Shown: piece by piece, positions 1,076 through 38,050 of the stretch | Layout of the letters: every line of letters starts with the position of its first letter | Numbering within the stretch: the first letter of the stretch is position 1 | NCBI GenBank assembly: GCA_963169875.1 | Contig: CAUJEL010000204.1 | Location: 1 to 38,098 of the forward strand | Direction of reading: 5' to 3' | Length of the DNA stretch: 38,098 bases | From: Candidatus Zhuqueibacterota bacterium | GTDB taxonomy: Bacteria; Zhuqueibacterota; Zhuqueibacteria; Residuimicrobiales; Residuimicrobiaceae | Program-made: the position numbers and the translations under genes | The notes under the pieces: model-generated | What the model was told of the DNA's origin: nothing | The model's input: the letters and a program-made list of their open reading frames with translations, nothing else | The model's database searches: none

Positions 1076-4000
1076 TCACAAAAATTGAATCTTTTCTACA
1101 TTTAGATAGATGGCGCCGAACTGCTCATCGACCCTCCCCTGCAGCAGAAAGGGCCTTTTGTCCGTCATCATATAGGCGAACCGCGTGTACACTTTAGGGA
1201 AAAAAGTGGTCTCGTAAATGGCGGTTGTATCTTCAAAGCTTATGAATTCCATGAGTTGTTTGTGCCGGGTGCTGACGACTTTGGCGGTGATGAACCAGCC
1301 AATGGTGTGGACATGCTCACCGATGTGCTTGTGAAGATCACAACCCTTGACATGCCGGAGGCGTTGTATTTGCTCCTTGTATAGGGTGAGCGGATGCTGC
1401 GACAGCAGAAATCCCAGTATCTCCTCCTCCATTTGCCACAGCTCCTTGGAACTATAGGCAGGGGGTTTGGGCAGTTCATCCGGCAATACCGTATTCTCTT
1501 CAAAAAGCGATAGGGTTGTGCCAGTTGCGGGTGCTGATTTTTTGTGCGATTGCCACCAATAGAGATGCCACAACAGCTCGGGTCTCGATTTATGCGGTTC
1601 CAGGGTATCAAAAGTTCCCGCCTTTATAAAGATAGCAATATCCGCCGCATCAAACGTGACGCGGGACAAGAAATCCGCAAAAGATGCAAAAAGCCCGTTT
1701 TTTTGCCGTTCTGCCAGTACTGTTTTCACGGCATTTTGCGTTATTCCCTTTAGCTGCATCAATCCGACACGAACCTTTTTGCCCCTTCCGCTATATTTTT
1801 GTTCACTTTCATTGATATCCGGCAGAAGTACCTGCAATCCCATGCGCCGCGCTTCCGAAATGTAAGCAAAGGCGGAATAATAGCCTCCCTGATTACTGAT
1901 CACCGCGGCTATGAATTCCGCGGGATAATGCACGCGCAAATAGGCCGACTGGAAAGAGACCAACGCGAAGGAAGCAGAATGGGGTTTACAAAAACTGTAT
2001 TCTGCAAAACTGAGGATCATCTCCCAGATTTTCTCGCAGGTCTCCGCATCAGCGCCTTTTTGCTGTGCTCCCATAAAAAACTGCACTTTATACGCTTCAA
2101 GTTGATGGCGTTTGTGCTTCTTGGTGACAATTTTGCGCAAATCATCGGCGCTGGAAGAATCAAAACCCGCCAGGGCAATGGCGACCTTGGAGACATCCTC
2201 CTGATAGACCATGATGCCATAGGTTTCTTTGAGAAGGTTTTCCAGTGTGGGATGCAGGGGTTTGTAGGCACCACCGCGCAGACGCCGCACATACTCTTCG
2301 ATGAACACCGCCGCAGCCGGACGGATGATGGAGCTGTGGATGACCAGATGCTCGAAATCGCCCTTGCCGGTTTTGCGTTGCAGCTGCCGCATGGCCGGCG
2401 ATTCGACGTAGAAAACGCCGATCGTATCACCGCGCGCCAGCATCGCCCGGGTGGCTTCATCCTGCAGGGGATTGATGCGGTTGAAATCAAGATCAATGCC
2501 ATAATTATCCAGGACTGCGCGGCGCGCGTCGCGGATGACCGCCAGCGAGCGGTTGCCGAGGATATCCATTTTCACCAGTCCCATATCCTCGGATTGATCC
2601 TTCTCCCAATGCACCACCTGAACGTGTTCCAGTTCCCGCGGCAAGCCTGTATCGCCTTCAGTGAGAACACCGGCGGGCCGGAGAATTTTTTTGGCCGGCT
2701 GCACGGCACAGTAGTGGTCGAGCCCTTCCGGCGCAATGACCACACCGCCGCAGTGAATGGAGAGATGCCGCGGATATCCGCGAATTTTTTCGGCGTGCTG
2801 GAGAATCTCCGGCCAGGGGGGGCGCAGCTCGGTCCCCTTGTAAACCGGATGGGTTTGGATTAATTGCTCCAGGTTGCCCGGCTGCCAGTAGCTGGTCATT
2901 TTTTTGCTGATCAGACCTATCTCACGATCGGGCATGCCATAGACCTTGGCAATCTCGCGCACCGCGGAGCGGGCTTTGAAACAGTTGTGGTTGGCGATCA
3001 TGGCGACGCAGGAACGGCCATACTTGCGGAAGAGATAATCGATGATGTCGTCGCGCTCATCCCAGGGGAAATCGACATCGATGTCCGGCGGATCCACGCG
3101 GCCCGGATTGAGGAAACGTTCGAAAAAAAGGTCATATTTGATGGGATCCACATGGGTGATGCCGAGGCTATAGCTGACGAGGCTGGAAGCGGCCGAACCG
3201 CGGCCGCAGGTGCGCGGCGCCTGGCGCACGGCATCAGCAACCACGAGAAAGTAGGGGGCGAATCCCTTGCGGTTGATGAGGTCCAGTTCAAAATCCATGC
3301 GCTGCCTGACTTCAGGGGAGAACGAACCATATCGCCAAATCACGCCCCTTTCGACTTGCTGTTGCAAATACGTCTGCGCATCCTGGCCCTCAGGACCCTG
3401 GAACGATGGAAAGATGTTTTTGCCGAAATTCAGATCGAACGTGCACTGTTCTGCAATGCGTTTACTATTCGTGATCGCCTCCGGGCAATCCGGAAAATAA
3501 TTTTGCATCTCTGCCGTTGGGATCAAATGCGCCTCAGGGGACGCCAGTTCGTGGGCGGGAATGCGGGTCAGGGTTGTGTTGAGGTCAATGGCCCGCAGCA
3601 GGCGATGCACCTCAAAATCCTTGCGGTCGAGAAAATAGGCGGCCTGACTGGCGACGGGGGGGATATTTTTCTTCCGGGCGAATTGCAGGGTCTTGTGGCG
3701 GTTACGATGCGGAACGATTTCTGCATAAAGATCATCCCGGACGCCCGCCTGGTGCAGCGCTTCGAGCAAGGCCAGATCATCGCTGAGGAGGATGACCTGC
3801 TCGCGGTTTCCTTTCAGCCAATCGATGAGATGGAACGCTTCATCGCCGTGCAAGGCAGTGAGGGTGCGGCACAGGGTGCGGTAGCCGGTGAGATTTTTCG
3901 CGAGCATGACGGCGTGATTGGCGCGGTGTTGCAGGAATGCGCCCACCAGGGGGGTGAGGTTTTGCGCCCGCGCCTCCTGCAGGAACCAAGCCAGTCCATA

Positions 4001-4153
4001 GATGCCGTTGGTATCGGTCAGTGCGAGATGGGAAAACCCCATCTCGCTTGCACGGCCGCAGATATCCTCGATGCTATTGGCGCCCCGGCACAGGCTGTAA
4101 TTGGAATGGACGTGCAAATGGATAAAGTCGCCTTGTTGGTGCGGCCGGGGCAT
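1076..4153 (-). CDS. dnaE2: Error-prone DNA polymerase III alpha subunit, short DnaE2/ImuC type
   Basis: This is a C-family DNA polymerase that probably extends past lesions during SOS mutagenesis. An N-terminal PHP domain carries HLHVHS (12-17) and LTDTNG (45-50), where the usual TDH has become TDT. The palm holds PDIDVDF with D359 and D361 and, later, VKMDILG with D530, so all three catalytic carboxylates seen in E. coli DnaE (D401, D403, D555) are present. TLSLF at about 880-884 looks like a beta-clamp binding pentapeptide, and an OB fold fills the last 80 residues. At 1025 aa it is shorter than a replicative DnaE (about 1160) and lacks the long tau-binding tail. It begins 13 bases after the GNAT-like gene. 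The lexA and inactive Y-family gene upstream make a damage-induced role much more likely than chromosome replication. Confidence 0.9.
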   Translation of the reverse strand: MPRPHQQGDFIHLHVHSNYSLCRGANSIEDICGRASEMGFSHLALTDTNGIYGLAWFLQEARAQNLTPLVGAFLQHRANHAVMLAKNLTGYRTLCRTLTALHGDEAFHLIDWLKGNREQVILLSDDLALLEALHQAGVRDDLYAEIVPHRNRHKTLQFARKKNIPPVASQAAYFLDRKDFEVHRLLRAIDLNTTLTRIPAHELASPEAHLIPTAEMQNYFPDCPEAITNSKRIAEQCTFDLNFGKNIFPSFQGPEGQDAQTYLQQQVERGVIWRYGSFSPEVRQRMDFELDLINRKGFAPYFLVVADAVRQAPRTCGRGSAASSLVSYSLGITHVDPIKYDLFFERFLNPGRVDPPDIDVDFPWDERDDIIDYLFRKYGRSCVAMIANHNCFKARSAVREIAKVYGMPDREIGLISKKMTSYWQPGNLEQLIQTHPVYKGTELRPPWPEILQHAEKIRGYPRHLSIHCGGVVIAPEGLDHYCAVQPAKKILRPAGVLTEGDTGLPRELEHVQVVHWEKDQSEDMGLVKMDILGNRSLAVIRDARRAVLDNYGIDLDFNRINPLQDEATRAMLARGDTIGVFYVESPAMRQLQRKTGKGDFEHLVIHSSIIRPAAAVFIEEYVRRLRGGAYKPLHPTLENLLKETYGIMVYQEDVSKVAIALAGFDSSSADDLRKIVTKKHKRHQLEAYKVQFFMGAQQKGADAETCEKIWEMILSFAEYSFCKPHSASFALVSFQSAYLRVHYPAEFIAAVISNQGGYYSAFAYISEARRMGLQVLLPDINESEQKYSGRGKKVRVGLMQLKGITQNAVKTVLAERQKNGLFASFADFLSRVTFDAADIAIFIKAGTFDTLEPHKSRPELLWHLYWWQSHKKSAPATGTTLSLFEENTVLPDELPKPPAYSSKELWQMEEEILGFLLSQHPLTLYKEQIQRLRHVKGCDLHKHIGEHVHTIGWFITAKVVSTRHKQLMEFISFEDTTAIYETTFFPKVYTRFAYMMTDKRPFLLQGRVDEQFGAIYLNVEKIQFL

Positions 4154-4166
4154 CGTTTACTTCTTT

Positions 4167-5336
4167 CTAGCGAATTTCTTTCTCAAAGATGGCATAGACT
4201 TTTGACAGCTTAAAGTCTTGCATCATCTCCACCACGCGAATGATCAGGACGTTGTCTTCCAGAACCCAACCGAGGTCGGCGTAATCATAGCCCTTTTTCT
4301 GCGAAAAGACTTTCTGCTGCCACAACATGACGCCATCGATTCCGAGGCGGCGGAATTTGGGGCGCACGCCCATGTAGCCGAGGCGGAATCCGGTGATTCT
4401 GCCTTTTGTCAGCAGCATGCGCGCGGCGCGCAGCAATTCGCAGCGGCGGCGCCAGGAGAGCGGCTTCATGCGTTCAAAAATATTGGGAACACCACCAAAA
4501 AAAGCCGCCAGTTCACCCTTGACATAGACGAAAATAAAGAGCCCCTTCTCCATGATCAGCTGCATATCGTCGACATTTTTGCAAAATTCTTCCCGTGTGA
4601 AGGGCACATAGCCCCAGTTGTCATTCCAGGCTTCGTTATAGACCTGCAGCATCTCTTCCTTGCGAACGCTCAGAGGCCGTTGCCCCCAATCCTCGATGGT
4701 GACGCCATAATGCTCCATCACCTTTTTGCCGACGCGTTCCAGCTTCTCTTCCATGGGACGATCCACCGGCACTTCCCACGATTTGACGCGCTTGACCACC
4801 TGCATCTGATAGTTTTGCAATATTTTTTCATAGTAGGGCTTGTTGTAATGGTAATAAACCACCGGCCGGGAGTCGAATCCTTCAACGAGGCATCCTGGTG
4901 TCGCCTCATTGACCGGCAGGTTTTGCGGACCGCGCATGGTGGTCATGCCCTTGCTTTTAAGCCATTCGGCGGCGGCGTTCAACAGCGCATCAGCGACTTC
5001 CTGGTCATCGATTGTCTCGAACTGTCCGAAAAAACCCACCTTGTCATTCCAGTGCTTGTTGTGATTATGATTGACAAAGGCATTGCAGCGGCCCACCACC
5101 TTTTCACCGCGTTGTGCCAGAAAAAAAGTCATCTCGGCGTGTTTGAAAAACAGGTTTCTGGGTTCAAAAAAGCCGGTGATGCCAAGAAGTTTGAAACCGA
5201 GGTATTCATAATCGAGCAACGGGATGTATTGCGGGTCATTTTCATAATGTTTCCAGTGGAAATCGACAAAAATTTTCAAGAGACGGCGATCTCTGGCGGT
5301 CTTGTTGGAGAATTGGATAATCTTCACAGCGGACAT
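4167..5336 (-). CDS. GNAT-like acyltransferase family protein in the SOS cassette
   Basis: The protein has 389 residues from an ATG preceded by a GGGAGA ribosome site 8 bases away. An upstream in-frame ATG would add 19 residues but lacks this site. The C-terminal part (about 290-389) has the look of a GNAT acetyltransferase: a beta-strand reading LGYMGVRP, then KFRRLGIDGVML, which matches the acetyl-CoA binding R/Q-x-x-G-x-G/A region, and finally DLGWVLEDN, a pattern I know from a family of uncharacterised GNAT proteins of similar length. The N-terminal half is less clear and may be a second, degenerate GNAT fold. The substrate is unknown. It is immediately upstream of the DnaE2-type gene (13 bases), so the two are almost certainly co-transcribed. 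Nothing in the sequence proves a repair role. Confidence 0.75.
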   Translation of the reverse strand: MSAVKIIQFSNKTARDRRLLKIFVDFHWKHYENDPQYIPLLDYEYLGFKLLGITGFFEPRNLFFKHAEMTFFLAQRGEKVVGRCNAFVNHNHNKHWNDKVGFFGQFETIDDQEVADALLNAAAEWLKSKGMTTMRGPQNLPVNEATPGCLVEGFDSRPVVYYHYNKPYYEKILQNYQMQVVKRVKSWEVPVDRPMEEKLERVGKKVMEHYGVTIEDWGQRPLSVRKEEMLQVYNEAWNDNWGYVPFTREEFCKNVDDMQLIMEKGLFIFVYVKGELAAFFGGVPNIFERMKPLSWRRRCELLRAARMLLTKGRITGFRLGYMGVRPKFRRLGIDGVMLWQQKVFSQKKGYDYADLGWVLEDNVLIIRVVEMMQDFKLSKVYAIFEKEIR

Positions 5337-5508
5337 GGTTTTTCTCCCTATTCTCTGATGAGCAAAATGATTTTTTTGTGTTTTCATGAACACATGGGGC
5401 AGAATTTATCAGGTCAGGATACTTTTACTTCTTTTTTGCACAAAATGGCTGCCATTCTCAGCGAACAGCCTTGACGCCCGCAATGACTCCGGTTTGCAGG
5501 GGGCGGGA

Positions 5509-6384
5509 TCAAACGAGAGATTCTGCGTTCACATCGTGATGGCGGCAACGAATTCGCGCCTCTTCAGGATTATGCGTGGCATAGCAGTAGAGGCAGCCGG
5601 CCGCACAGGTGTTGTTGACGCCTATGTCCCTGCTGCGCATGCAGCCGCACAAGGGGCGCTGTCCCGGATCTTTTTGATAATTCAGGTTCAGTCCAAATTC
5701 GCTTTTCAGCAGCCGGTCATCGATACAGCGGTCTGTAGAGATGCCATATGACTGCACAACTTCCGGCTCGGCGCATGACGCAACATTCATCTGGTTTGAC
5801 TCAGCGACCGCCATTATATGTTGCAGCAAAGGCGCCAGGCCGTGATGCAGCAGCGCATCCCCCTGATAGGGTATCTTTGCCGTCCGCATCCGCAAAAGCG
5901 TTTTACGATATTCATCCAGAAAACTGATTACCACCTTCCGGGTCGAACCGCACAGCTGCGCGCAGAGAAATTCGAAATTCTTTTGATGGAACGCCAATGT
6001 GCAATCATCGCTGAACAGGATGGGATCATAACGCCAGATCACGCGCCTTGGGCCCAACTGCTGCGCCAGAGCCTTGAAACAGTCAATGACTTGCTGCAGC
6101 GGCGCTGCACCCGGCTCATACTGCCCGGGATAGTTGGTTATGGTGTATTGAAAGTAAAACTTGAATTCAGATCTTTCAAGTTCCGCTAAAAAGGGCATTA
6201 ACAGTTTCGGATACCTCGTCCAGAAGACAAAGGCGTCGACCGCTTCCGGGCGCAGGTCAACGCGGCTCGCCCTTTTCGGATTAAAGGGATTGGGCACCCT
6301 GCAGTAGCCGGCGCGGACGCGGTGGATGAACCACTCCGCATAGTAGCGGGGTATGTCGGTGCGCCGGCTGGCGGAGATGATCAT
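5509..6384 (-). CDS. DUF1848 family protein with C-terminal cysteine cluster
   Basis: This 291-residue protein begins MIISASRRTDIP, the typical DUF1848 start, after a strong GGAGG site 6 bases upstream of the ATG. The body has FVFWTRYP and VIWRYDPI, also typical of the family. Near the C-terminus lies CGCMRSRDIG followed by NNTCAAGCLYCYA, a group of five to six cysteines that likely binds an iron-sulfur cluster or zinc. The CxxxCxxC spacing recalls radical SAM enzymes, but it is at the wrong end of the protein for the classical fold. The function of the family is not known to me. The gene lies between the Y-family homologue (109 bases away, with its own promoter candidate) and the GNAT gene, inside the lexA-dnaE2 block. 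Confidence 0.85.
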   Translation of the reverse strand: MIISASRRTDIPRYYAEWFIHRVRAGYCRVPNPFNPKRASRVDLRPEAVDAFVFWTRYPKLLMPFLAELERSEFKFYFQYTITNYPGQYEPGAAPLQQVIDCFKALAQQLGPRRVIWRYDPILFSDDCTLAFHQKNFEFLCAQLCGSTRKVVISFLDEYRKTLLRMRTAKIPYQGDALLHHGLAPLLQHIMAVAESNQMNVASCAEPEVVQSYGISTDRCIDDRLLKSEFGLNLNYQKDPGQRPLCGCMRSRDIGVNNTCAAGCLYCYATHNPEEARIRCRHHDVNAESLV

Positions 6385-6404
6385 GACCGCCTCCTTCAAA
6401 GTGC

Positions 6405-6432
6405 AATATAGCATATTTTTGCTAAAGGTCAA
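6405..6432 (-). promoter_or_regulatory. Candidate promoter for the DUF1848 gene with overlapping inverted repeat
   Basis: On the minus strand TTGACC (6432-6427) and TATATT (6410-6405) are 16 bases apart, about 20 bases upstream of the DUF1848 start. The spacer holds TAGCA-6-TGCTA, a perfect 5+5 bp inverted repeat reaching into the -10 box, which could be an operator. It does not match the repeat at the lexA promoter. Confidence 0.5.
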
Positions 6433-6492
6433 CTTTTTTCTGCAAACGGGGGTGCGGCTTCCTGCGCAGGACGCCTCCCTCCTGCCGCCGTC

Positions 6493-7656
6493 TCACGCCG
6501 CATAGCCAAAGCGGATGGCGGCATCGCCGAAGCGGTCGCGGATTCGGTCCAGGGCGCGGGTGAGGGCCTCGGTTTTGGGATTTTCCTGGGCCGGAAAGAG
6601 TCCGAGCTGGCTGCTGGCCGGACCCAGGCCGCCGAGGCGCAGGGTGATTTTGCGCACGCGTACGCGCCGTGCCAGGGCGTTCTGGAGGGTCGCTTCGGTG
6701 CTGGCGCGCAGTTCCGCGTCGTTTTGCGCCGCCGCGGTGCGGCTATGGGCGCTGGCGTCGCGGTAATCGGCGTAGCGGATTTCCACGGTCACCCGTTGCG
6801 TGAAGAGCTGGTCGCGGCGCAGGCGCCGGGTGGCGCGGGCCAGGAGTGCGAAGGTGAGGCGGCGCAGGTGGTCGAAGTCGTTGCAGTCGTCGGCCAGTTC
6901 CGCGGTTTCGACGATTTCGGGACTGCGGCGCGGCGGTTGCACCGGGCGGTCGTCTATGCCGCGGGCGCGCTGGAACAGCAGCAGGCCGAAGCGGCCGAAG
7001 ACCATCTGCAGATGCTCGGATTTGATCCCGGCCAGTTCCTGGATGCGGTGGACGTTGAGTTCGGTCAGCTGGCTGCGGATGGTTTTTTGCACGCCCGGCA
7101 GATAGCCCACCTGCAGCGGGGCGAGAAAGCGCTGTTCCTCGCCGTGGTTGACGTCGCAGAGGGCGGTTTGCGGACTCGCGACGATGATGACATCGGAGGC
7201 GACCTTGCTGACCAGTTTATTGCTGGCCACGCCGGCGACGGCATCGAGGCGGAGGCGGTTGCGGATTTCGCGCTGGGCGCGGGCCGCGGCGTCCACGGCG
7301 CTGCCGAAGAGTCGGCAGGAGCCGGTGAGGTCGAGGTAGGCGTGGCCGAAGCGCAGCGGTTCGATGACGGGTGTGAAGCGGCCGAGGAGTTGCAGCAGCG
7401 CGGTTGTGGCGCGGCGGTAGAGATCCTCGTTGGGCGGCAGCACGGTGAGATCCGGGCAGTATTTCAGGGCCTGGTGCAGGGGCATGCCGCGCTGCACGCC
7501 ATTGGCGGCGGCCTCGCGGGAACGCGCGGCGATGAGGGCGCGGCTGCTGGTCTCGATCGCCACGGCCACGGGTCGCTGCCGCAGCCGCGGTTCCAGCACC
7601 CGTTCCACGGCCACGGGGAAGTCGTTGATGTCAATATGCAGGATGGTGCGGGACAT
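6493..7656 (-). CDS. Catalytically inactive Y-family DNA polymerase homologue (ImuB-like)
   Basis: The 387-residue protein aligns by eye along the whole length of DinB/Pol IV: palm (1-110, 140-165), helix-hairpin-helix region (about 180-215), little finger (about 245-345) and the clamp-binding tail QLGLF (350-354). The first metal ligand is kept (HID, D9), but the DE pair of the usual SxDEAYLD motif reads FGHAYLD (G104, H105). The steric-gate aromatic next to F13 is proline (P14). Two of three catalytic carboxylates are therefore lost, as in ImuB, which acts as a clamp-binding adaptor for DnaE2 rather than as a polymerase. The start chosen is the ATG of MSRTILH; the frame stays open for 53 codons upstream, but they do not resemble the family. 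It sits 4 bases after the small ORF downstream of lexA. The gene looks GC-richer than its neighbours. Confidence 0.85.
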   Translation of the reverse strand: MSRTILHIDINDFPVAVERVLEPRLRQRPVAVAIETSSRALIAARSREAAANGVQRGMPLHQALKYCPDLTVLPPNEDLYRRATTALLQLLGRFTPVIEPLRFGHAYLDLTGSCRLFGSAVDAAARAQREIRNRLRLDAVAGVASNKLVSKVASDVIIVASPQTALCDVNHGEEQRFLAPLQVGYLPGVQKTIRSQLTELNVHRIQELAGIKSEHLQMVFGRFGLLLFQRARGIDDRPVQPPRRSPEIVETAELADDCNDFDHLRRLTFALLARATRRLRRDQLFTQRVTVEIRYADYRDASAHSRTAAAQNDAELRASTEATLQNALARRVRVRKITLRLGGLGPASSQLGLFPAQENPKTEALTRALDRIRDRFGDAAIRFGYAA

Positions 7657-7660
7657 GGTT

Positions 7661-7828
7661 TTACCGATCAACGTCAAAGCCCCGAAGGGCCGTCCTGTGC
7701 CAGCCCAGGCCGCAAGCCCGGGTATAATCAAAAAAATAAAACCCTGGAGGGCCATCCCGCACCACATGCTGATGGGGCGTCTCGTCCCGCCTGCCCTGAT
7801 AAAAAGCAATTTCATTCAGGACACTCAT
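7661..7828 (-). CDS. Small ORF coupled to lexA, possible remnant of a HEAT-repeat-like protein
   Basis: The 55-codon frame starts at an ATG that overlaps the lexA stop by four bases (ATGA) and ends 4 bases before the inactive polymerase start, so it fills the gap exactly. Its first 22 residues (MSVLNEIAFYQGRRDETPHQ and on) remind me of the N-terminus of small HEAT-repeat proteins that start with a similar FYQ-x-RRDE-x-P-x-Q pattern. After that the similarity stops and the residues look random. It may be a truncated gene kept only as a translational bridge, or a spurious frame. There is no other support. Confidence 0.35.
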   Translation of the reverse strand: MSVLNEIAFYQGRRDETPHQHVVRDGPPGFYFFDYTRACGLGWHRTALRGFDVDR

Positions 7829-8433
7829 GCCACTTCCTCGCGGATCAAAGCCACCACCTTGCCTTGAATGGACCACTCACCCCGGGGATAAATGTCCTCA
7901 AAAGCCGGATTCTCCGCCTTGAGAAACAGCCCACCGGGCGCCTGGGCCAGCCGTTTGACGGTGGCTTCTCCCTCCATCAGTGCCACCACGACATCGCCGA
8001 CTTGCGCCTCGGCCTGGGCGCGCACCACCACCAGGTCATCGGGCAGGATGCCCGCCTGGATCATGCTCTGGCCGGCCACGCGCAGCAGAAAATGGGGCGC
8101 GCTGGAATGGAGTAAATAAGAGGGCACCGGCACATAACGTTCAATGTTCTGTTCCGCCAGCAGTGGTGTGCCTGCAGCAACCGATCCGATCAAGGGCAAC
8201 CCCGCCTCGCCGCTCCCCAAATCAGAGGCCAGTTGAATCCCCCGCGCCTTGTTACGTTCCCAGACGATATAACCCTTGCGCGAAAGGATGCGCAAATATT
8301 TGACCGCCGTGTTTTTCGAGGCGGCCCCCAGTTCTTCGGTCAATTCGGCCAGCGTCGGCGGATAGCCCTGTTCCCGGGTCCGCTTGGCGATCAGTTCGAG
8401 CGCTTTTTCCTGTTTTCGTGACAGCTTTTCCAT
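7825..8433 (-). CDS. lexA: LexA SOS repressor
   Basis: LexA binds operators of damage-response genes and self-cleaves when stimulated by RecA filaments. The 202-residue protein starts at MEKLSRKQ with a GGAGGG site just upstream; the frame is open 17 codons further but runs back through the promoter, so those codons are not used. The winged helix-turn-helix spans residues 1-68 (YPPTLAELTEELG then NTAVKYLRIL). The cleavage site is Ala87-Gly88 in SVAAGTP. The catalytic dyad is Ser123 (GQSM) and Lys160 (ATVKRL). The length is normal for LexA (about 200). It heads the minus-strand block that contains the ImuB-like and DnaE2-type genes and is probably autoregulated through the inverted repeat at its start site. 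Confidence 0.96.
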   Translation of the reverse strand: MEKLSRKQEKALELIAKRTREQGYPPTLAELTEELGAASKNTAVKYLRILSRKGYIVWERNKARGIQLASDLGSGEAGLPLIGSVAAGTPLLAEQNIERYVPVPSYLLHSSAPHFLLRVAGQSMIQAGILPDDLVVVRAQAEAQVGDVVVALMEGEATVKRLAQAPGGLFLKAENPAFEDIYPRGEWSIQGKVVALIREEVA

Positions 8434-8451
8434 AACCCTCCACAAATAAAA

Positions 8452-8475
8452 AAGGGTGAATATATTTTCACCCTT
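8452..8475. promoter_or_regulatory. Candidate LexA operator (9+9 bp inverted repeat on the lexA start site)
   Basis: AAGGGTGAA and TTCACCCTT form a perfect 9+9 bp inverted repeat around the 6-base spacer TATATT. It begins at the base next to the -10 box, so it covers about -6 to +18 of the predicted transcript, the position where a repressor would block initiation. LexA is the obvious candidate because the gene is normally self-repressed. The motif is neither the E. coli CTGT-N8-ACAG nor the Bacillus GAAC-N4-GTTC box. It could instead act as an RNA hairpin in the leader. Confidence 0.6.
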
Positions 8476-8504
8476 AGTATACATAATATTTTATCTGTTG
8501 TCAA
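8476..8504 (-). promoter_or_regulatory. Strong promoter of lexA
   Basis: On the minus strand a perfect -35 TTGACA (8504-8499) is followed after exactly 17 bases by TATACT (8481-8476). The spacer is AT-rich. Transcription would start near 8470, giving a leader of about 35-40 bases before the lexA ATG at 8433. Confidence 0.8.
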
Positions 8505-8523
8505 GTCAAAAGTGCTATTTTGT

Positions 8524-8766
8524 TCACCTATTAGTAATTTCCTCACAGGGGATATTGAGGACCATGGCGAGACGTTCATGGATTTTTTCCGGCACTTCCT
8601 TTTCCTTGAGCAGCGCAAAGAGATGGACGGTGCTGCGCATGGTCTGAAGTTGCCGGGCGCACTCTGGACACTCCGTCAGGTGCTGTTTCAAGCGTTGACA
8701 GACATCGGAATCGATGTCTTCCGCCAATTCCGCGCAAATTTCATCGAGAATTTTTTCACAGGACAT
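8524..8766 (-). CDS. Small zinc-finger anti-sigma-like protein
   Basis: The 80-residue protein starts at MSCEK, six bases after an AAAGGGG site; an ATG five codons earlier overlaps the stop of the upstream UspA gene (ATGA). Its central segment HLTECPECARQ fits the H-x3-C-x2-C motif of the ZAS/putative zinc-finger family found in cytoplasmic domains of ECF anti-sigma factors. There is no membrane segment and no sigma factor gene nearby, so a soluble regulatory or redox-sensing zinc protein is as likely as a true anti-sigma factor. It is coupled to the universal stress protein gene. Confidence 0.65.
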   Translation of the reverse strand: MSCEKILDEICAELAEDIDSDVCQRLKQHLTECPECARQLQTMRSTVHLFALLKEKEVPEKIHERLAMVLNIPCEEITNR

Positions 8767-8777
8767 AACTGCCCCTT

Positions 8778-9671
8778 TCATTTAACCACCAGTACGGGTA
8801 TTTTTGACTGGCGCACCAGATGATCCGAAACGCTGCCCAGCATGATAGGTTCATCGGTGAAACGGCTGCGCTGACCAATGATGATCATATCGGCATGGTG
8901 ATTATGCGCGTATTCGATGATTTTATCCGAGACCGGGCCTATTTCCAGAACGCGGCTGCAATTAATTTTTTCCGGTAACACGTCCTGCGCGAAATGCGCC
9001 AGGGTTTCTGAGGCGCGATGCTGTAAAACAGGCATCAGCGAAGCCATGCCGGAGGTGCCATAATGGGCGAGAAAGCTGTCGTCAATGACATGCAGGAGAT
9101 CGATCTGAGTCTTTGCCGACGCAAGAGCAGCAGCCATTTCCAGTGCTTTTTTGCTGTTGGGTGAAAAATCGCTCCCCACCAACAGACGATTGTAATATTT
9201 CAGGGAGTCCCTGTTTTTTGATCCTTGCCGCACAGCCAGCACGGGACAGGCTGCCATTTTCGTCACCTTGTCGGCGACGCTGCCGAGAATCCATTGCGAA
9301 AGAGGTTTGTGGCCGTGTGATCCGATGGCCACCAGACCAATGTCATTCTTTTTAATAAAGGTGAGAATTTCTTCCGCCACATTGAAGCCGCTGCGTACAG
9401 TGGCATCGACTTTAACACCCTCGCTGTGAATCCCGGCGAGGCAAGCGTCGATCTTTTGAGAGGCTTTTCTCTCCAGATGGCCGAACAGGGCGTTCAAGGT
9501 CGAAATTTGCTTCTCTTCGATATCACTCTCTGCAAAAAGAGTCACGACATGCAGAAGCGTTATCGAGGTGTTAAAGATTTTCGCCAGGATCAAAGCATTT
9601 TGCATGGCCGCGTCCGCAGGCGCGGAAAAATCGCTGGCGACCAGTATATTCTTTATCGGTTCCATGGGCAT
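8778..9671 (-). CDS. Tandem-domain universal stress protein (UspA family)
   Basis: The 297-residue cytoplasmic protein is made of two UspA domains (about 4-150 and 158-297). Each starts with a ILVASDFS / LLVGSDFS strand and ends with the PVLAVR / PVLVVK strand. The first has a complete nucleotide-binding pattern G-2x-G-9x-G-S (GSHGHKP then ILGS), whereas the second has GQRS in place of GxxG, so probably only the first binds ATP. The start is taken at MPMEP, where AGGA lies 4 bases upstream; MEPIKN two codons later is an alternative. Such proteins are induced in stationary phase or stress and their biochemical role is usually unclear. It is 45 bases downstream of the CorA gene and overlaps the zinc-finger gene. 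Confidence 0.9.
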   Translation of the reverse strand: MPMEPIKNILVASDFSAPADAAMQNALILAKIFNTSITLLHVVTLFAESDIEEKQISTLNALFGHLERKASQKIDACLAGIHSEGVKVDATVRSGFNVAEEILTFIKKNDIGLVAIGSHGHKPLSQWILGSVADKVTKMAACPVLAVRQGSKNRDSLKYYNRLLVGSDFSPNSKKALEMAAALASAKTQIDLLHVIDDSFLAHYGTSGMASLMPVLQHRASETLAHFAQDVLPEKINCSRVLEIGPVSDKIIEYAHNHHADMIIIGQRSRFTDEPIMLGSVSDHLVRQSKIPVLVVK

Positions 9672-20745: not shown

Positions 20746-20812
20746 CTGATTTTGTGGCACTTAATTTGTAATATATCCTCCTTTGGGATCAATTCAAGAT
20801 GTGGAGGTTGTC

Positions 20813-21952
20813 ATGCATGGCCGAAAAACGATCATTTTTTTGCTGGTTTGGCTGTTCCCCGCACTGGCTGCGCAAGCGCAAATGCAAATCCAGGCGCAGG
20901 TCATTCAAAGGGATTTGCGGGTCTTTTTTCTCAGCGATCTCAATTTAACCGGACGCGGGACCACCGCAAATGAAATCTTTGCGCTCACCATCACCAATCC
21001 AACCGGGACTGCGCGAACCTCGCAGCTATGGGTTGGCATCAGCAGCAGAAATTTCGGTGAACTGGCTTCCGGTATTACGAATCCGTTTACATTGTCTCCA
21101 GGCGCTTTTCTTCGCATCACCAACCGTAATCTTTTCTCACAAGCGCAGCAGTTCACTTTGCAGGACTATCAAATCCTGGACACCGGCATAGAGTTGCGCG
21201 ATCGTGTGCTCAGGCTTGGCAAGCTGCCCTCGGACATTTACATTTTTACCTTCGAATTAAGGCCAAGCGATGGGGGTTCGTCCTCATCGACCTTCATCGA
21301 AATCGATGTCTCCAATCCCACCAGCCTCGATCTCATCGGCCCGGGTGCTCCGGCCGATCGCGGAGATGCAGTTATTGTACCCTCTTCGCAGCCCATTTTC
21401 CGCTGGACGTCCAATATCAATCAATTCAGGCTCTGCATTGCCGAAAAGCTGCCCGATGTTCACGACAGCGCCAGCCCTGCCGAAATCATCCAGGACCGGA
21501 TTCGATTCGAAAAAACTTTTACGCTGGATCCGACCAGAAGCGGCGGTTTAGCAGAAGATGGCAGCGAATACATCTCCACAACCGCCTATCCCTATCCCGC
21601 CGCGGGCGTTTGGCCGCTCGAAGCGGGCAAAGTCTATTTCTGGCAGATAACGGGCATCGTGCCCTCATCCGGCGCTCCCCTGGAGCTGCCCAGTGAGATC
21701 TGGTCTTTTGAGGTTCAGGGAGCGGGCGGCCCGCTGGGCAGCCTCACTCATGAAGCACTGCTGGCCCAGTTGCGGGCCTTGCTGGGCGCCGATTTTGAGG
21801 CCTTTTTCAAATCCGGCGGTGAATTGGCGGGATATTTACCCAGTGGACTTTTTCTGCTCAATGGACGATGGATTTCGCAGGAGCAGATTCGCGCGATTTT
21901 AGCCAAAATAGCCTCCGGCGAATACACGCTGATTGAATCACGGGTCGAATAG
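20813..21952 (+). CDS. Secreted protein of unknown function
   Basis: The 379-residue protein starts at MHGRKTII after a GGAGG site; an in-frame TTG at 20783 is not used. It has a clear signal peptide with cleavage after LAAQA (about residue 21). The mature part looks beta-rich, with a strand pattern (FALTITNPTGTARTSQLWVG) like an immunoglobulin-type domain, then a P-x-FRWTS segment with KVYFWQITG, which resembles fibronectin type III-like modules in extracytoplasmic proteins. I do not recognise a named family. It is 28 bases upstream of the FecR gene and probably the first gene of the envelope-signalling operon. Confidence 0.75.
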   Translation: MHGRKTIIFLLVWLFPALAAQAQMQIQAQVIQRDLRVFFLSDLNLTGRGTTANEIFALTITNPTGTARTSQLWVGISSRNFGELASGITNPFTLSPGAFLRITNRNLFSQAQQFTLQDYQILDTGIELRDRVLRLGKLPSDIYIFTFELRPSDGGSSSSTFIEIDVSNPTSLDLIGPGAPADRGDAVIVPSSQPIFRWTSNINQFRLCIAEKLPDVHDSASPAEIIQDRIRFEKTFTLDPTRSGGLAEDGSEYISTTAYPYPAAGVWPLEAGKVYFWQITGIVPSSGAPLELPSEIWSFEVQGAGGPLGSLTHEALLAQLRALLGADFEAFFKSGGELAGYLPSGLFLLNGRWISQEQIRAILAKIASGEYTLIESRVE

Positions 21953-21980
21953 TGCCTGTTCTTTAAGGAGAATGCACATC

Positions 21981-22661
21981 ATGAAGATAGCACATCTAAC
22001 CATAATACTTCTTGCGGGTCTGGGAATGATTCTCTTCAGCACGACCTGGCTCTGGGCGGCTCCGCAGGAAGTCGCTTTTGTCTTGAAGGTGAGCGGCGAA
22101 GCCAAGATCAAAAAGGAGAGCTCAAATTGGGCCACCATATCAAAAGGCATGCGGCTGCACAATAAGGATATCATCAAAACCGGAACTACCGGTCTGGTGG
22201 CCCTTGTTTTTCTGGATGATAAAACCATGATGAAAATTCGTTCAGATTCCGAAGTCCAGATACAGGCGGAGAAGGACGAAAAGGGCATGCACAAACGCAT
22301 CATCATGGAGATCGGTCAGATGTGGAGCAAAGTCACGCCAGGCAAAGGTTCATTTCGCCTCGAGACACCATCGGGCGTTGCTGCGGTGAAAGGCACAGAG
22401 TTCTACGGCATCGCCGACGGAGACGGGAACACCATGATCATTGGCATCGAAGGCATTGTGGAATTCTTTAATGATTTGGGAAAAATTCTCGTCGTCAAGG
22501 GCACCACTGGAAAGGCCGGCAAGAACGGGATTCCCAATCTCAGCGACACCCAGGTATTCGAAGACTGGGCTCAGGACGGTGCGACCAATGAGCTGGACAT
22601 AGAGTTTGAAAATTCGCAGGGCGCGAAAAAACATCTCAAACTAAAATATAAAATGCAATGA
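21981..22661 (+). CDS. FecR-domain periplasmic protein
   Basis: The 226-residue protein starts at MKIAHLT, 10 bases after AAGGAG, and carries a signal peptide (about 1-27, cleaved after LWA). The FecR domain covers about 30-150: VSGEAKIKKE, then LHNKDIIKTGTTGLVALVFLDD, then FRLETPSGVAAVKGTEF. FecR domains occur in anti-sigma regulators but, as here, also in free-standing periplasmic proteins that accompany outer-membrane and CHASE2 proteins. There is no sigma factor in the window. Its stop is 17 bases before the start chosen for the outer-membrane gene, and an alternative ATG of that gene overlaps the stop. Confidence 0.88.
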   Translation: MKIAHLTIILLAGLGMILFSTTWLWAAPQEVAFVLKVSGEAKIKKESSNWATISKGMRLHNKDIIKTGTTGLVALVFLDDKTMMKIRSDSEVQIQAEKDEKGMHKRIIMEIGQMWSKVTPGKGSFRLETPSGVAAVKGTEFYGIADGDGNTMIIGIEGIVEFFNDLGKILVVKGTTGKAGKNGIPNLSDTQVFEDWAQDGATNELDIEFENSQGAKKHLKLKYKMQ

Positions 22662-22678
22662 TTGGGAGAAGAGTCGCC

Positions 22679-25234
22679 ATGGCGCATCGGAGATCAGGCC
22701 CTAATAAAAGCTGGCTTTTTCTTGTCATGATCTGGCTTGCCGTTGCAAGCAATCACGCGTTTACACAGCCGTTGCTCAAGCATAACCCTCCTCAACAAGC
22801 CCGTATGGGCAGTCCCATCATCATTGACTGCACATTGAGAACCGGCCCTGACCTGCATGTACAAAAAGCGCATATTTTCTTTCGTTCCGGTGCAGAAACG
22901 ACGTACCGATCCGTCACCATGCAGTCCATCGGCGATAATTGGCAGGGCATCATTCCTGCAAAGTTGGTGCGGGATAAGAACTTTAAATATTTTATCACCT
23001 TTTTGTTTGACAATCAGACGCTCAAGACCTTTCCTGAGAAAAATCCCTATAACCAACCTCATGCACTCGAGCTGCTCCCTCCTGCCGCAGCTGTCACCAT
23101 CGCGCCGCCGGCTGTCGCTGTGCCGCAAAAGTCTTCTCCATCCGCCCCAACGGCATCCATGCCGACGCCTGTACCATCTGTTTCGTCCGCAGTCACCACA
23201 AGCGATACGTTGCAACTTCTCAGTCCGGAACCGGACGGCACGTATGATGCACAGGACGTTCTTCTGGCCGTTTCTTATATGGGTGAAACGGAGTTGGATC
23301 CGCTACGGGTGCGAATAGATCTGGATATCCGTGATGTAACCCGTCAAGCGGAGATCACAGGAAATTTGATCACCCTCACACCCGCGGAATTGATACCCGG
23401 ACGCCATATCATCAAAGTCCAGGCTCATGATGTCAAAAACAGGCTCATTCCCCCCGTGTCGGTGCGATTTTTCATCATTGGCCAGGAAAAATCCGTCACC
23501 CAGGCACCGGAAAAAATGCGCGCCCATGTTTACACAGACCTGATGTATGAAGAGACGGGGGACAAAGGGAATCGCGTCGCCATGGCAGGAGCCGAACTTT
23601 CCGGCAAGTGGAAAAGTTTCGCCTACCGCGGCAATTTGTTTTTCACATCTCTGGAAGATCGCCATTTCCAGCCCCGCAACCGTTTCAGTTTTTCCATCAG
23701 CAACAAATGGATCGGCGTAGCAGGTGGCGATGTTTATCCGCGTTACAATGAGCTCATCCTGGCCGGAAAACGCGTACGCGGGGTGAACGGTTATCTGCAT
23801 CTGGGATTGGTCAACCTGGATGTCGTTTATGGCCAGACGCAAAGATCAGTCAAAACGGCGTGGACGCGCATACCCGGCGGCACGGACGCAGATTCCCTGC
23901 AAGTGAACCGCTACGGCACTTTCTCGCAAACCCTGATCGGCGTACGTCCGAGCTTGGGCGACGGCCGTCATTTTCAATTGGGATTGACGCTGGTAAAAAT
24001 AAAAGACGATACCGGATCGGTTGCCGCCGGCCTTTTGCCCAAGGACAATCTCATCATCGGCCCGGATGTCAAATTATCGCTGCTGCGCGACAGGATTGTG
24101 CTGACCGCTCAGGCCGCTGTGAGTGCCATCACCCAGGACATATATCCAGGCGCAGTGACTTCTGATGATGTAGAACGGGCATTTGGCGATGATTTCGAGT
24201 TGCCCCTTGACCCGCAAACTCTGGACAACCTCCTCATCATCAATGACAGCACCATCCCCTTGAATCCCCTGGACGGCGGTTCATTGGCTTATCTGGTCAA
24301 TCTCAGGGTCAACCTGCTGCAGCAATTCCTCAATGTGGGTTATCGCTCCATCGGATCTGAATACATCTCGCTCGCCAATCCCTGGCTGAGAAAAGATCTG
24401 CGCGGTTTTTTCATCAACGACCGGCTTCGCTTTCTCTCCAACAGAGTTTATCTCACTCTGGGCTATGAGCAGTATGCGGACAATTTCAGCGAACAAAACG
24501 CCAACCCGGCCATTGACTTGCGCACGCTGAATTATGCCCTTACGCTCTTGCCGGGAGAGAACTATCCCCAGCTCAATATCAGCCTGCGCGACCAGCTACG
24601 TGACAATCATGTGGATACAATCTCGGTGCAATCCTATCAGATCAGTTCACTGCTGGACAGCACAACCGTTGTTCGGGATGAACGGGAAAAGATCTGGTTT
24701 CGTGACCTGGCTATCCAGGCAAGTCAAAATTTCAGGCTCTTTGATATTTCACACCAGATGAATCTAGGCTACATATCAAGCAGGAATATCGACGATTTCG
24801 AGGATGAGCGCGGGGCCGGGCATGTATCCGCTGAGTTGAGCAATCGCATCGTGATGCTGAGCCTGACGACGCGGTATGCCGTTCCACTGACTACCACCTT
24901 CAGCTACAGCCACAATGTGATGGATGGTTCGGGCATACCCGATTTGAATTATCAGACCATGGCGTTTTCCGGTGAATATCGCTTTTTGCAGGACCGGCTG
25001 GCGACATTTGCAGATTGTCAATATACCCATATCCGGCAGCAGTCGGCGGCAAGTGCGGATATCGAGCAGAACCGCATGCAATTGCGGTTAGGCACAAGAT
25101 GGCAGTTCTCTCCTGGACAATCCCTGGTTCTCGAGGGACAGCTGTGGCGCTATACGATGAACCTCGATGAGGTTTCCTCCACAGCGAACGCCACAGACAG
25201 CATCCTGCGTTTGCGATTTGACCGTTACTTTTAA
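22679..25234 (+). CDS. Large outer-membrane beta-barrel-like protein with N-terminal Ig-like region
   Basis: The 851-residue protein starts at MAHRRSG, after a GGGAG site, with a basic n-region and hydrophobic core (SWLFLVMIWLAVASNHAFT) as signal peptide; an ATG seven codons upstream overlaps the FecR stop. After a beta-sandwich-like domain (about 40-125) and a Pro/Ala/Ser linker (about 130-180) there is a second Ig-like region. The rest, about 280-851, alternates short polar turns and amphipathic strands, as in an outer-membrane barrel. The last residues LRLRFDRYF end in the aromatic typical of BAM substrates. I do not recognise a named family; a transport or anchoring role is possible. Its place between FecR and CHASE2 genes suggests a common system. 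Confidence 0.7.
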   Translation: MAHRRSGPNKSWLFLVMIWLAVASNHAFTQPLLKHNPPQQARMGSPIIIDCTLRTGPDLHVQKAHIFFRSGAETTYRSVTMQSIGDNWQGIIPAKLVRDKNFKYFITFLFDNQTLKTFPEKNPYNQPHALELLPPAAAVTIAPPAVAVPQKSSPSAPTASMPTPVPSVSSAVTTSDTLQLLSPEPDGTYDAQDVLLAVSYMGETELDPLRVRIDLDIRDVTRQAEITGNLITLTPAELIPGRHIIKVQAHDVKNRLIPPVSVRFFIIGQEKSVTQAPEKMRAHVYTDLMYEETGDKGNRVAMAGAELSGKWKSFAYRGNLFFTSLEDRHFQPRNRFSFSISNKWIGVAGGDVYPRYNELILAGKRVRGVNGYLHLGLVNLDVVYGQTQRSVKTAWTRIPGGTDADSLQVNRYGTFSQTLIGVRPSLGDGRHFQLGLTLVKIKDDTGSVAAGLLPKDNLIIGPDVKLSLLRDRIVLTAQAAVSAITQDIYPGAVTSDDVERAFGDDFELPLDPQTLDNLLIINDSTIPLNPLDGGSLAYLVNLRVNLLQQFLNVGYRSIGSEYISLANPWLRKDLRGFFINDRLRFLSNRVYLTLGYEQYADNFSEQNANPAIDLRTLNYALTLLPGENYPQLNISLRDQLRDNHVDTISVQSYQISSLLDSTTVVRDEREKIWFRDLAIQASQNFRLFDISHQMNLGYISSRNIDDFEDERGAGHVSAELSNRIVMLSLTTRYAVPLTTTFSYSHNVMDGSGIPDLNYQTMAFSGEYRFLQDRLATFADCQYTHIRQQSAASADIEQNRMQLRLGTRWQFSPGQSLVLEGQLWRYTMNLDEVSSTANATDSILRLRFDRYF

Positions 25235-25261
25235 ATATTATCTTGACAGGGTTACACAATC

Positions 25262-27376
25262 ATGATGGACAAGAAAAGATCACGGGAACGGTTCCGGGTC
25301 ATCATACTCATCGCCGCACTTTCTCTCTTTCTTGCGTTTATATTGGATTCGATGGTACTCATCGAGAGCATCCAGCTGAAAACCGTCAATACCCTGTTCA
25401 ACCTGCGCGGTCCTGCCACTCCACAGGACACAACCATTGTCATCATCGCCATTGATGATCAGACCCTGCGCAGCCTGCCCGGAAAGCTGCCCTATCCACG
25501 CAGCTACTACGCCAAACTCGTGAACAACCTGCGCGTGGCAGGCGCGAAAATGATCATCTTCGATATCGAATTCACGGAAGTTACGCACGAGCGGCCGGAT
25601 GAGGATTTACAGCTGGCTGCTGCGGTGAGCGATATGAAGCAGGTCGTCCTGGCTGGAAAAGTGGTTTTGGATATCGGCAGCCGGCTGTCTAATAATGAGC
25701 ATGTACTTGAACCCATTCAGCCGCTCATGCGCACCCAGGCTGTGCTGGGATTGGTCAATGTGCCTGAAGATGGCGATGGTTTCATTCGCCGCTATCTGCT
25801 GTTTCAGCCTTCCGGTCAGCGTGTTTACTACTCGCTGGGCGTTCAAGCTGCACGGCTTCTTTCCGGGCATTCGATGGACACGCCTCCTGATCTTTTTACG
25901 CATGCATTCGAACTGGGCTTGGTCGAAATTCCCAAGGTTCAGGACAATACGATGTACATTAATTTCAGGGGGCCCGCGCGCACGTTTCGAACTTATTCGC
26001 TGGTCAGCGTCCTCGACGATTCCACGTTTGATCTTCCTGGTGATGAAGACACCGACATTTTTGATCAATATTTGGAATGGGGTACATTTCGGGACAAAAT
26101 CGTCTTTGTAGGTGCAACTGCCGAGGAGATGCAGGATAACAAATTTACGCCCTTTTTCGAGTATAGCGGTTTAAAACAGAAAATGCCCGGCGTGGAGCTG
26201 CACGCCAACGCCTTGAGCACCATGATTCGCGGTGATTTCATTCATCCATCACCCGAGTGGCTTGTCTACATCATTGCTGTATTATTGGCGTTGATGGCAG
26301 GGTTGTTTATGCGCTGGATGCATGGTGTGCGCGCCTTGGCCATGGTTCTGTTCATCGCGTTCCTCTATGGCGGCATGGTTTATGCGGGTTTTGCATTTAT
26401 GCGAGTGCTCGTACCATTAAGTGTACCCTTGTTAACCCTCGCGGTGGCTTCTGTCTCCCATCTCGCTTATCAAATCGTTGTGGAGCAGCGTGAAAAAGCG
26501 CGCATCCGCCAGACGTTTCAACAATATGTAGCACCCGCAGTTGTCGCAAAAATGCTCGATGCCGGGGAGCTGCCCAGTTATGGCGGAGAACGCAAGGAAC
26601 TGACTGTCTTGTTTTCGGATATCCGCAGTTTCACGCGTTTCAGCGAAAACAATGAACCGGAAGTGGTGGTGTCGCGGCTTTCCGATTACCTCAGTGAGAT
26701 GGTGGACGTGATTTTTAAATATAACGGCACGCTGGATAAATTTGTCGGTGATGAGATCATGGCGTTGTTTGGCGCGCCCTACCATTATGAGGATCATGCG
26801 ATGCGCGCCTGCCAGGCGGCATTGGAAATGCTGCAGCGTCTTAAAGAGTTGCACAAGGCGTGGCCTGATGAAGCGTACGGCCGTTTCAATATTGGTATTG
26901 GCATCAATACCGGCAAGATGATTGTGGGTAATCTGGGTTCAAAGCAGCTGTTCGATTATACAGTGATCGGCGATCAGGTCAATCTGGCATCGCGTCTGGA
27001 GGGTGCCAACAAGGAGTATCAGACCAATCTGATTATCAGTGAAAGCACGTATCAGTGCATCAAGGATAAATCCTTTTGCCGTGAGCTGGATCAGGTCAAA
27101 GTGGTGGGCAAATCGCAGGCCATACGCATTTTTGAACTGCGCAGCATGGATTCGCTGCCGCAGTTGGAGCAGGATTATTTGATCGACATCTACAGCGAGG
27201 GTTTGTACGCCTACCGGGAACGGCGCTGGTCCGATGCACTGATATCCTTTCGTAAAGTATTGCGTTATTTTCCCAACGATGGGCCGTCTCGCATCTACAC
27301 TATTCGCTGTCTTAATTATTTGGAAGCACCGGCGCCGTCCGATTGGGATGGCATCTATGAAATGAAACAAAAATAA
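25262..27376 (+). CDS. CHASE2-domain class III adenylate cyclase
   Basis: This 704-residue inner-membrane enzyme should convert ATP to cAMP in response to a periplasmic signal. One N-terminal membrane helix (about 12-35) leads to the CHASE2 sensor (about 40-325: RGPATPQD, IVIIAIDDQTLRSL, FVGATAEEMQD). Three membrane helices follow at about 335-408. The cyclase domain begins at about 445. Metal-binding D453 (LFSDIRSF) and D497 (VGDEIM) are present, as are the adenine-selecting K493 and D565 and the transition-state N574 and R578 (NLASR). All catalytic positions are therefore intact, and the K/D pair favours ATP over GTP. The C-terminus (about 635-704) is TPR-like. It starts 27 bases after the barrel gene. 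Confidence 0.95.
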   Translation: MMDKKRSRERFRVIILIAALSLFLAFILDSMVLIESIQLKTVNTLFNLRGPATPQDTTIVIIAIDDQTLRSLPGKLPYPRSYYAKLVNNLRVAGAKMIIFDIEFTEVTHERPDEDLQLAAAVSDMKQVVLAGKVVLDIGSRLSNNEHVLEPIQPLMRTQAVLGLVNVPEDGDGFIRRYLLFQPSGQRVYYSLGVQAARLLSGHSMDTPPDLFTHAFELGLVEIPKVQDNTMYINFRGPARTFRTYSLVSVLDDSTFDLPGDEDTDIFDQYLEWGTFRDKIVFVGATAEEMQDNKFTPFFEYSGLKQKMPGVELHANALSTMIRGDFIHPSPEWLVYIIAVLLALMAGLFMRWMHGVRALAMVLFIAFLYGGMVYAGFAFMRVLVPLSVPLLTLAVASVSHLAYQIVVEQREKARIRQTFQQYVAPAVVAKMLDAGELPSYGGERKELTVLFSDIRSFTRFSENNEPEVVVSRLSDYLSEMVDVIFKYNGTLDKFVGDEIMALFGAPYHYEDHAMRACQAALEMLQRLKELHKAWPDEAYGRFNIGIGINTGKMIVGNLGSKQLFDYTVIGDQVNLASRLEGANKEYQTNLIISESTYQCIKDKSFCRELDQVKVVGKSQAIRIFELRSMDSLPQLEQDYLIDIYSEGLYAYRERRWSDALISFRKVLRYFPNDGPSRIYTIRCLNYLEAPAPSDWDGIYEMKQK

Positions 27377-27395
27377 TCCTATTCATGGAGAAATC

Positions 27396-27578
27396 ATGGA
27401 AGAGAAAGATGAAAGACCAGGCAAGCCAGTCATTGGCGAGTATAAGGGAAATCCGATACTGACCCTGAACCCCGGTGAACGTTTTCCGTTTTCGTTCGGT
27501 TTATCAAAAGCCAAGCTCATCCTGATGCATCTGGATGAAATACGGGATTTTGTGCTTAAGTACAGCAAGGACAAATAA
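27396..27578 (+). CDS. Small conserved protein of unknown function (60 aa)
   Basis: The ATG is 6 bases after GGAG and only 19 bases after the cyclase stop. The sequence is ordered and charged, with the core GEYKGNPILTLNP, then FPFSFGLSKAKLIL and a helix ending in LDEIRDFV. I recall small bacterial proteins with nearly the same GEYKGNP and FPF-x-FGLxKAKLIL elements but no assigned function. No membrane segment is seen. It is followed directly by a strong terminator, so it is the last gene of the operon. Confidence 0.8.
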   Translation: MEEKDERPGKPVIGEYKGNPILTLNPGERFPFSFGLSKAKLILMHLDEIRDFVLKYSKDK

Positions 27579-27579
27579 T

Positions 27580-27614
27580 AAAAAAGGCGGCTGTTATAAA
27601 ACGGCCGCCTTTTT
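27580..27614. terminator. Bidirectional intrinsic terminator
   Basis: GGCGGCTG (27586-27593) pairs with CGGCCGCC (27602-27609) around an 8-base loop, with A- and T-runs on either side. It separates convergent operons. Confidence 0.9.
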
Positions 27615-27634
27615 AAATTCAACCTGTGTGCACG

Positions 27635-35727: not shown

Positions 35728-35754
35728 AATTAACTCCGGAATGGTCTAAAACAA

Positions 35755-35788
35755 AGGAGGAGTTGTCCAGATAGAAACAGCTCCTCCT
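35755..35788 (-). terminator. Terminator or attenuator between CsgG-like and FecR genes
   Basis: On the minus strand AGGAGGAGCTGT pairs with ACAACTCCTCCT through 12 pairs (one G-U) around a 10-base loop, followed by TTTGTTTT. It may partly stop transcription into the FecR-der operon. Confidence 0.65.
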
Positions 35789-35815
35789 GTGAAGTTGGCA
35801 GGACCTGCGAGCGGA

Positions 35816-36745: not shown

Positions 36746-36806
36746 CATACACCTCAAAATTTAGGCACTAATTCAATTTCTGTTTGATCGACGTCCACAG
36801 TATGCG

Positions 36807-38015: not shown

Positions 38016-38050
38016 GGGCAGTTCCTCTGTATTTAATTTTCCATGCTTAA

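Follow-up and report, generated by a model that had tools for sequence, protein, structure and literature searches.

Two types of mutasome lacking ImuA have been put forward in a 2026 survey as the putative DnaE2B-iPolY-RecA and DnaE2X-iPolY-ImuB-C-RecA systems (PMC12926913), where iPolY denotes an inactive Y-family polymerase-like protein, the name used throughout here. The RecA N-terminal (RecA-NT) motif was described by Timinskas and Venclovas, and RecA has been proposed to substitute for ImuA in ImuA-less systems (PMC6511836). ImuB-C was defined by Aravind et al., who noted solo ImuB-C together with DnaE2 and an inactive DinB (PMC3765255). Here we describe, by computational analysis, a locus in a stretch of 38,098 nucleotides (the window; contig CAUJEL010000204.1 of assembly GCA_963169875.1) from an uncultured KSB1/Calditrichota-like bacterium whose genome (G000) is 95.6% complete. 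Open reading frame (ORF) and profile searches placed lexA, iPolY, a DUF1848 gene, a tandem GNAT gene and dnaE2 in one row, all on the minus strand. Very probably the locus is a mutasome operon under LexA control that belongs to the published ImuA-less type (iPolY-DnaE2-RecA, to which a standalone ImuB-C is probably added), a type with precedents in the literature (PMC6511836, PMC12926913, PMC3765255). It is found here with its parts dispersed and in a phylum for which no earlier report was found. What carries this reading is observed directly in the sequences: which genes are present, their motifs, the dead and the intact active sites, the operator sites, the lack of ImuA and the co-occurrence.

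A five-gene block of such genes is far beyond chance, and its core, lexA-iPolY-dnaE2, is repeated across the phylum. The initial annotation, made from the window alone, had described a lexA-headed cassette with an intact DnaE2 and a dead, clamp-binding Y-family protein, and this description was borne out by profiles, alignments, the QLGLF motif of iPolY and the intact active-site aspartates of DnaE2 (PDIDVDF and VKMDILG). In alignments the Pol IV motif SLDEAYLD reads RFGHAYLD in the iPolY of the window, such that the catalytic DE has become GH. Loss of the pair is common to all 38 of the cassette homologues compared, with DEA retained in six PolY paralogues of relatives, and the clamp motif is present as QLxLF or near variants in nearly all iPolY homologues. 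The dead active site, the clamp motif and the tail that follows it are kept together across about 38 proteins.

The tail, KTEALTRALDRIRDRFGDAAIRFG, resembles the N-terminus of RecA. When 36 iPolY tails were aligned to eight RecA N-termini of the same group by hhalign, a score of 24.1 (E = 3.1e-05) was obtained that was reached by none of 200 column shuffles, the maximum being 16.1; a single pairwise alignment of tail and RecA was equalled in 32 of 5000 shuffles. PF20114, the ImuB-C family, was not found in iPolY by Pfam search, the protein ending instead with this RecA-NT-like tail. Since iPolY ends in a clamp motif followed by such a tail, RecA is the likely substitute for ImuA. One RecA is encoded in the host genome, with one more match lying below the cut-off. 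The only Y-family genes found there are the iPolY of the window and one apparently active PolY, so that no classical ImuB is present. The apparently active gene (L172:2-799, contig C95) is truncated at the contig end and carries HIDMDAFF and VDEAFLD. A plasmid of Streptomyces sp. NBC_00016 (L140:2986-7457) encodes dnaE followed by a "hypothetical protein" with a 30% match to iPolY, a plasmid-borne pair resembling the Streptomyces scDinB2-DnaE2 pair.

The DnaE2 of the window is about 35% identical to the DnaE1 of the same genome and in a phylogenetic tree stands apart from it, grouped with DnaE2 proteins. It falls outside the clade of DnaE2s linked to imuA and imuB, beside the DnaE2 of Desulfosarcina, in a tree with weak support and no labelled DnaE2B or DnaE2X references. 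A Desulfosarcina ovata plasmid likewise carries lexA-iPolY-dnaE2; on this mobilizable plasmid (Do28_1; L116, 4531-10306) the order is lexA-DUF72-iPolY-dnaE2, with iPolY annotated only as hypothetical. The absence of ImuA, noted initially from the window, was upheld at the level of the genome, where the ImuA model NF033429 matched RecA alone, and its cut-off was reached in none of the 25 genomes searched. These results bear on the possibility that the locus is a diverged classical ImuA-ImuB-DnaE2 cassette from which imuA has been lost or moved elsewhere in the genome. Such a cassette would share the same logic of LexA control, a dead Y-family protein and DnaE2, but the ImuA model finds only RecA, iPolY scores with Pol IV/PolY-core models and has no fused ImuB-C, and DnaE2 lies outside the clade that travels with imuA and imuB. 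A classical ImuA cassette is therefore extremely unlikely, and was rejected on the ImuA search and the DnaE2 tree.

The LexA of the cassette scores 192.8 bits with TIGR00498 against a cut-off of 110.95. A GGTG-N10-CACC palindrome immediately follows the -10 box of lexA at 11 loci of the host's order, and in the window this candidate operator has the best score of a position weight matrix (PWM), 31.7 bits, the next being 10.7. The weaker site upstream has counterparts at the same position in four relatives (L001, L037, L005 and L038), and in the two genomes in which iPolY is split from lexA (G043 and G042; L044 and L046) iPolY is preceded, at a distance of 27 or 88 bp, by an operator-like site. 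A genome-wide scan with a simple pattern (GGTGANNNNNNNNTCACC, one mismatch allowed) was uninformative, giving 319 mostly GC-rich matches. Across the phylum the likely LexA operator upstream of lexA varies (L037-L070): the order has GGTG-N10-CACC, other families of its class have GTGCACAAATGTACAC and GAACATTTGTTC, and further out TATACC direct repeats are seen.

The C-terminal domain missing from the ImuB-like protein appears to be encoded elsewhere as a separate ImuB-C protein, a point new in the present analysis. The host and most of its order encode a lone DUF6504 (ImuB-C) protein of about 95 amino acids, which in the host (L173:2261-2560) scores 28.9 bits with PF20114 against a cut-off of 24.2 and lies on contig C120, unlinked to iPolY and dnaE2. 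PF20114 also matches the C-terminus of two of the three reference ImuBs. Direct hhalign comparison of the ImuB-C profile with reference ImuBs gave a weak match (E = 0.02), and the proteins were therefore assigned by their common Pfam family and by their position next to PolY genes, ImuB-C standing directly before iPolY in family f13 (G074, G076 and G078) and before active PolY-type genes in G002, G003, G004 and G007. At two loci of family f13 (L068:5949-6557 and L062:1108-1805) two tandem ImuB-C-like ORFs lie just upstream of iPolY. By profile, ImuB-C was detected in 15 of the 17 DnaE2-bearing genomes of the order and in none of the five DnaE2-less ones (p = 8e-4). Moreover, a PWM trained on lexA sites alone placed an operator at the -10 box or start of imuB-C in 14 of 16 genomes (p <= 0.011). 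The neighbours of imuB-C, by sequence inspection pflA-like, ECF-like and TonB-like genes, are unrelated, which makes the operator a separate line of evidence linking imuB-C to the cassette.

The association of iPolY with DnaE2 was assessed in 82 genomes of the phylum, with presence called by score bands (iPolY above about 200 bits; DnaE2 at about 800 bits or as high-identity partials; GNAT at about 60% identity or more; long-form DUF1848 above 250 bits) and all statistics uncorrected for relatedness. Both proteins were present in 35 genomes, iPolY alone in four, DnaE2 alone in nine and neither in 34 (p = 1.5e-10). The adjacency of lexA, iPolY and dnaE2 extends from the order out to other classes.

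Several observations weigh against an ImuA-less mutasome with standalone ImuB-C. The operator at imuB-C of the host itself is degenerate (4.7 bits, p about 0.045), G042 has none, and a PWM scan found no operator of the cassette type at recA. ImuB-C was not found by profile search in many iPolY-DnaE2 genomes outside the order, where it may be inessential or may have been missed by the profile. The host has two LexA proteins, and the upstream region of the second bears GAACATTTGTTC, unlike the cassette operator. Furthermore, the assemblies are drafts, and the co-occurrence statistics ignore relatedness and take the presence of iPolY and DnaE2 from score bands. At the locus of the second LexA (L171:4191-5477, contig C30) the gene is followed by two small ORFs of no assigned function, the last of which (80 amino acids) ends in SAQINLFD, resembling a clamp-binding motif.

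It had been suggested initially that DUF1848 or GNAT, which occupy the place between iPolY and dnaE2, might replace ImuA and belong to the same pathway. Neither has a RecA-like fold, RecA is the better substitute through the tail of iPolY, and both candidates were rejected in this role after controls of distribution, fold and synteny. Among related genomes the neighbours vary freely for DUF1848 and largely so for GNAT. At this locus DUF1848 is confined to family f1 (G000, G053, G050 and G051), after iPolY in three of these genomes and before GNAT in the fourth, and in most genomes it lies elsewhere. Other genes found in these slots encode TIM barrels of the AP_endonuc_2 type (in G050 by Pfam and in G035 by size and position), a glycosidase (G045), PDDEXK_3 (G055 and G010) and DUF72 (G074, G076 and the Desulfosarcina plasmid), the last of which also follows iPolY at L058 and L062.

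Another reading considered for DUF1848 was that the cassette has recruited it to repair damage, for instance as an enzyme of radical-SAM-like type with DNA photoproducts as its substrate. The invariant C-terminal CxC and CxxxCxxC cysteines in its alignment, a TIM-barrel-like structure model (predicted local distance difference test, pLDDT, 89.8), its place beside iPolY or GNAT in family f1 and the presence of SplB-like radical SAM enzymes in ImuB-C/SOS operons (PMC3765255) would favour such a role. Against it, long-form DUF1848 shows no co-occurrence with iPolY (p = 0.65) or DnaE2 (p = 0.64) in the 82 genomes, the weak best matches of its model in the PDB are mostly TIM barrels with none below E = 0.001, and between sister genomes it diverges more (67% identity) than GNAT (87%) or iPolY (85%). 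It also has its own promoter, with a counterpart (TTGATC-N16-TAAATT) at the same place in L001 (G053), and the operator scan found no operator beside it. Recruitment as a repair enzyme is thus very unlikely, and DUF1848 is probably not a part of the mutasome. Among the papers searched, none dealt with DUF1848 and none combined three of lexA, imuA, GNAT and DUF1848.

Among PDB structures the GNAT model (pLDDT 84.9) matches tandem GNATs (E = 2.7e-13), MAB_4324 and mycothiol synthase being examples. GNAT might be a genuine mutasome accessory within the order, sharing a transcript with dnaE2 and either acylating one of the mutasome or replication proteins or tuning the complex in some other way. 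In keeping with this it follows iPolY, directly or past DUF1848, in 11 of the 13 informative genomes of the order, on the same strand and mostly with small gaps to dnaE2; it co-occurs weakly with iPolY (p = 0.0076), and it remains together with dnaE2 in two genomes whose iPolY lies elsewhere (G042 and G050). However, 15 genomes have GNAT without iPolY and 13 have it without DnaE2, in G043 and G037 it adjoins another gene with no DnaE2 found in either genome, and it stands between iPolY and dnaE2 solely within one order, being missing or far from the mutasome outside that order. Moreover, the GNAT of the window has 62-73% identity to free-standing copies, and the invariant residues are the same in both. 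The Cys-rich anti-sigma-like gene beside lexA (11 of 11 lexA loci of the order) and an unrelated adenosine deaminase after dnaE2 (11 genomes) are conserved at the locus as well as GNAT is, and therefore adjacency does not single GNAT out. A true accessory role is accordingly unlikely, GNAT being an order-specific passenger or accessory, and membership of the pathway, as initially proposed, was not supported for either middle protein. Most likely both are neighbours without a role in the mutasome complex. A broader variant, in which a dispersed four-part mutasome regulon under a dedicated LexA with its own operator has, in the order, recruited the tandem GNAT, itself induced by damage, to modify DnaE2 or iPolY, is quite unlikely.

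In the ImuA-less mutasome favoured here, induction, protein contacts and mutagenesis would, as judged from sequence, proceed as follows. DNA damage would lead to RecA filaments, upon which LexA would cleave itself and be released from the GGTG-N10-CACC operator, permitting expression of lexA, iPolY and dnaE2 together with the unlinked imuB-C under an operator of this type. The dead iPolY would act as a scaffold, holding the clamp by QLGLF and RecA by its RecA-N-terminus-like tail, with RecA performing the job of ImuA, ImuB-C providing the DnaE2-contacting part of classical ImuB, and DnaE2 copying past the lesion. This places an ImuA-less mutasome in a poorly studied phylum. The LexA operator shared by unlinked genes is adjacency-independent sequence evidence that iPolY-DnaE2 and standalone ImuB-C may form one regulon. 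It also lends support to the published proposal that ImuB is split and that RecA stands in for ImuA. The imuB-C gene standing alone under the shared operator most deserves to be followed up, and a claimed role for DUF1848 or GNAT would have misdirected experiments.

Features of the mutasome locus, with positions in the window
Feature	Position	Strand	Evidence
lexA repressor, winged-helix and S24 self-cleavage domains	7825-8432 (ORF to 8484; likely start 8432)	-	TIGR00498, PF00717, PF01726
iPolY, 387 amino acids	6493-7656 (start near 7656, not 7815)	-	PF00817, PF11799, PF21999
iPolY, lost catalytic pair (Gly-His for Asp-Glu of Pol IV)	7342-7347	-	alignments
iPolY, beta-clamp-binding motif QLGLF	6595-6609	-	conserved among homologues
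iPolY, RecA-N-terminus-like tail	6496-6588	-	hhalign
DUF1848 protein	5509-6384	-	PF08902, E = 1.9e-92
DUF1848 sigma-70-type promoter, TTGACC-N16-TATATT	6405-6432	-	promoter match
Tandem GNAT acyltransferase	4167-5336	-	PF00583
dnaE2-type error-prone C-family polymerase, 1025 amino acids	1076-4153	-	PF02811, PF07733, PF17657, PF14579
Candidate LexA operator AGGGTGAATATATTTTCACCCT (GGTG-N10-CACC), at -10/start of lexA promoter	8453-8474		PWM and conservation
Weaker second site resembling the operator (GGTG-N10-CACT type), upstream of -35 box	8509-8530		PWM, 10.4 bits
lexA sigma-70-type promoter, TTGACA-N17-TATACT	8476-8504	-	11/12 matches; kept in relatives

Upstream of lexA (8524-8781) lies the small Cys-rich protein gene, with weak anti-sigma (RsrA-like) similarity, which was undetected at this place in other families. 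The far part of the window (20783-38087) is a large unrelated surface and signalling block encoding FecR, a CHASE2-adenylate cyclase, CsgG, FlgT_N and beta-barrel/TPR proteins, with two ORFs (389 and 858 amino acids) having no Pfam match. Rfam and tRNA scans of the window gave no match and no repeats were seen when looked for.

One of the closest described systems is the putative DnaE2B-iPolY-RecA mutasome, including gbDinB2-like proteins (Geobacter bemidjiensis DinB2), with which the locus shares an inactive Y-family protein whose clamp motif is followed by a RecA-NT-like tail, a DnaE2, a genome without ImuA or ImuB and, often, lexA in the operon (PMC12926913, PMC6511836). It differs in having GNAT, and sometimes DUF1848, between iPolY and dnaE2, in the additional lone ImuB-C, and in its occurrence in KSB1/Calditrichota-like genomes, names not in the main text of PMC12926913. 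With the LexA-ImuB-C-PolY operon of Geobacter sulfurreducens (GSU0042 type; PMC3765255, PMC6511836) it has in common a LexA-headed arrangement and a standalone ImuB-C with a Y-family protein, but in that operon the Y-family polymerase is apparently active and there is no DnaE2. The ImuA-ImuB-DnaE2 mutasomes of Caulobacter, Mycobacterium and Pseudomonas likewise combine LexA control, a dead Y-family scaffold with clamp motif and a DnaE2 polymerase, features that are here read from sequence; unlike these, the present system lacks ImuA, and ImuB is split into iPolY and a separate ImuB-C. The same parts, iPolY, standalone ImuB-C, DnaE2 and RecA, make up DnaE2X-iPolY-ImuB-C-RecA (Kyrpidia tusciae type; PMC6511836, PMC12926913). 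In those operons imuB-C is linked, whereas here it is unlinked and tied to the cassette only through the shared operator type, with the linked arrangement of the DnaE2X-type operons found in the same phylum in family f13.

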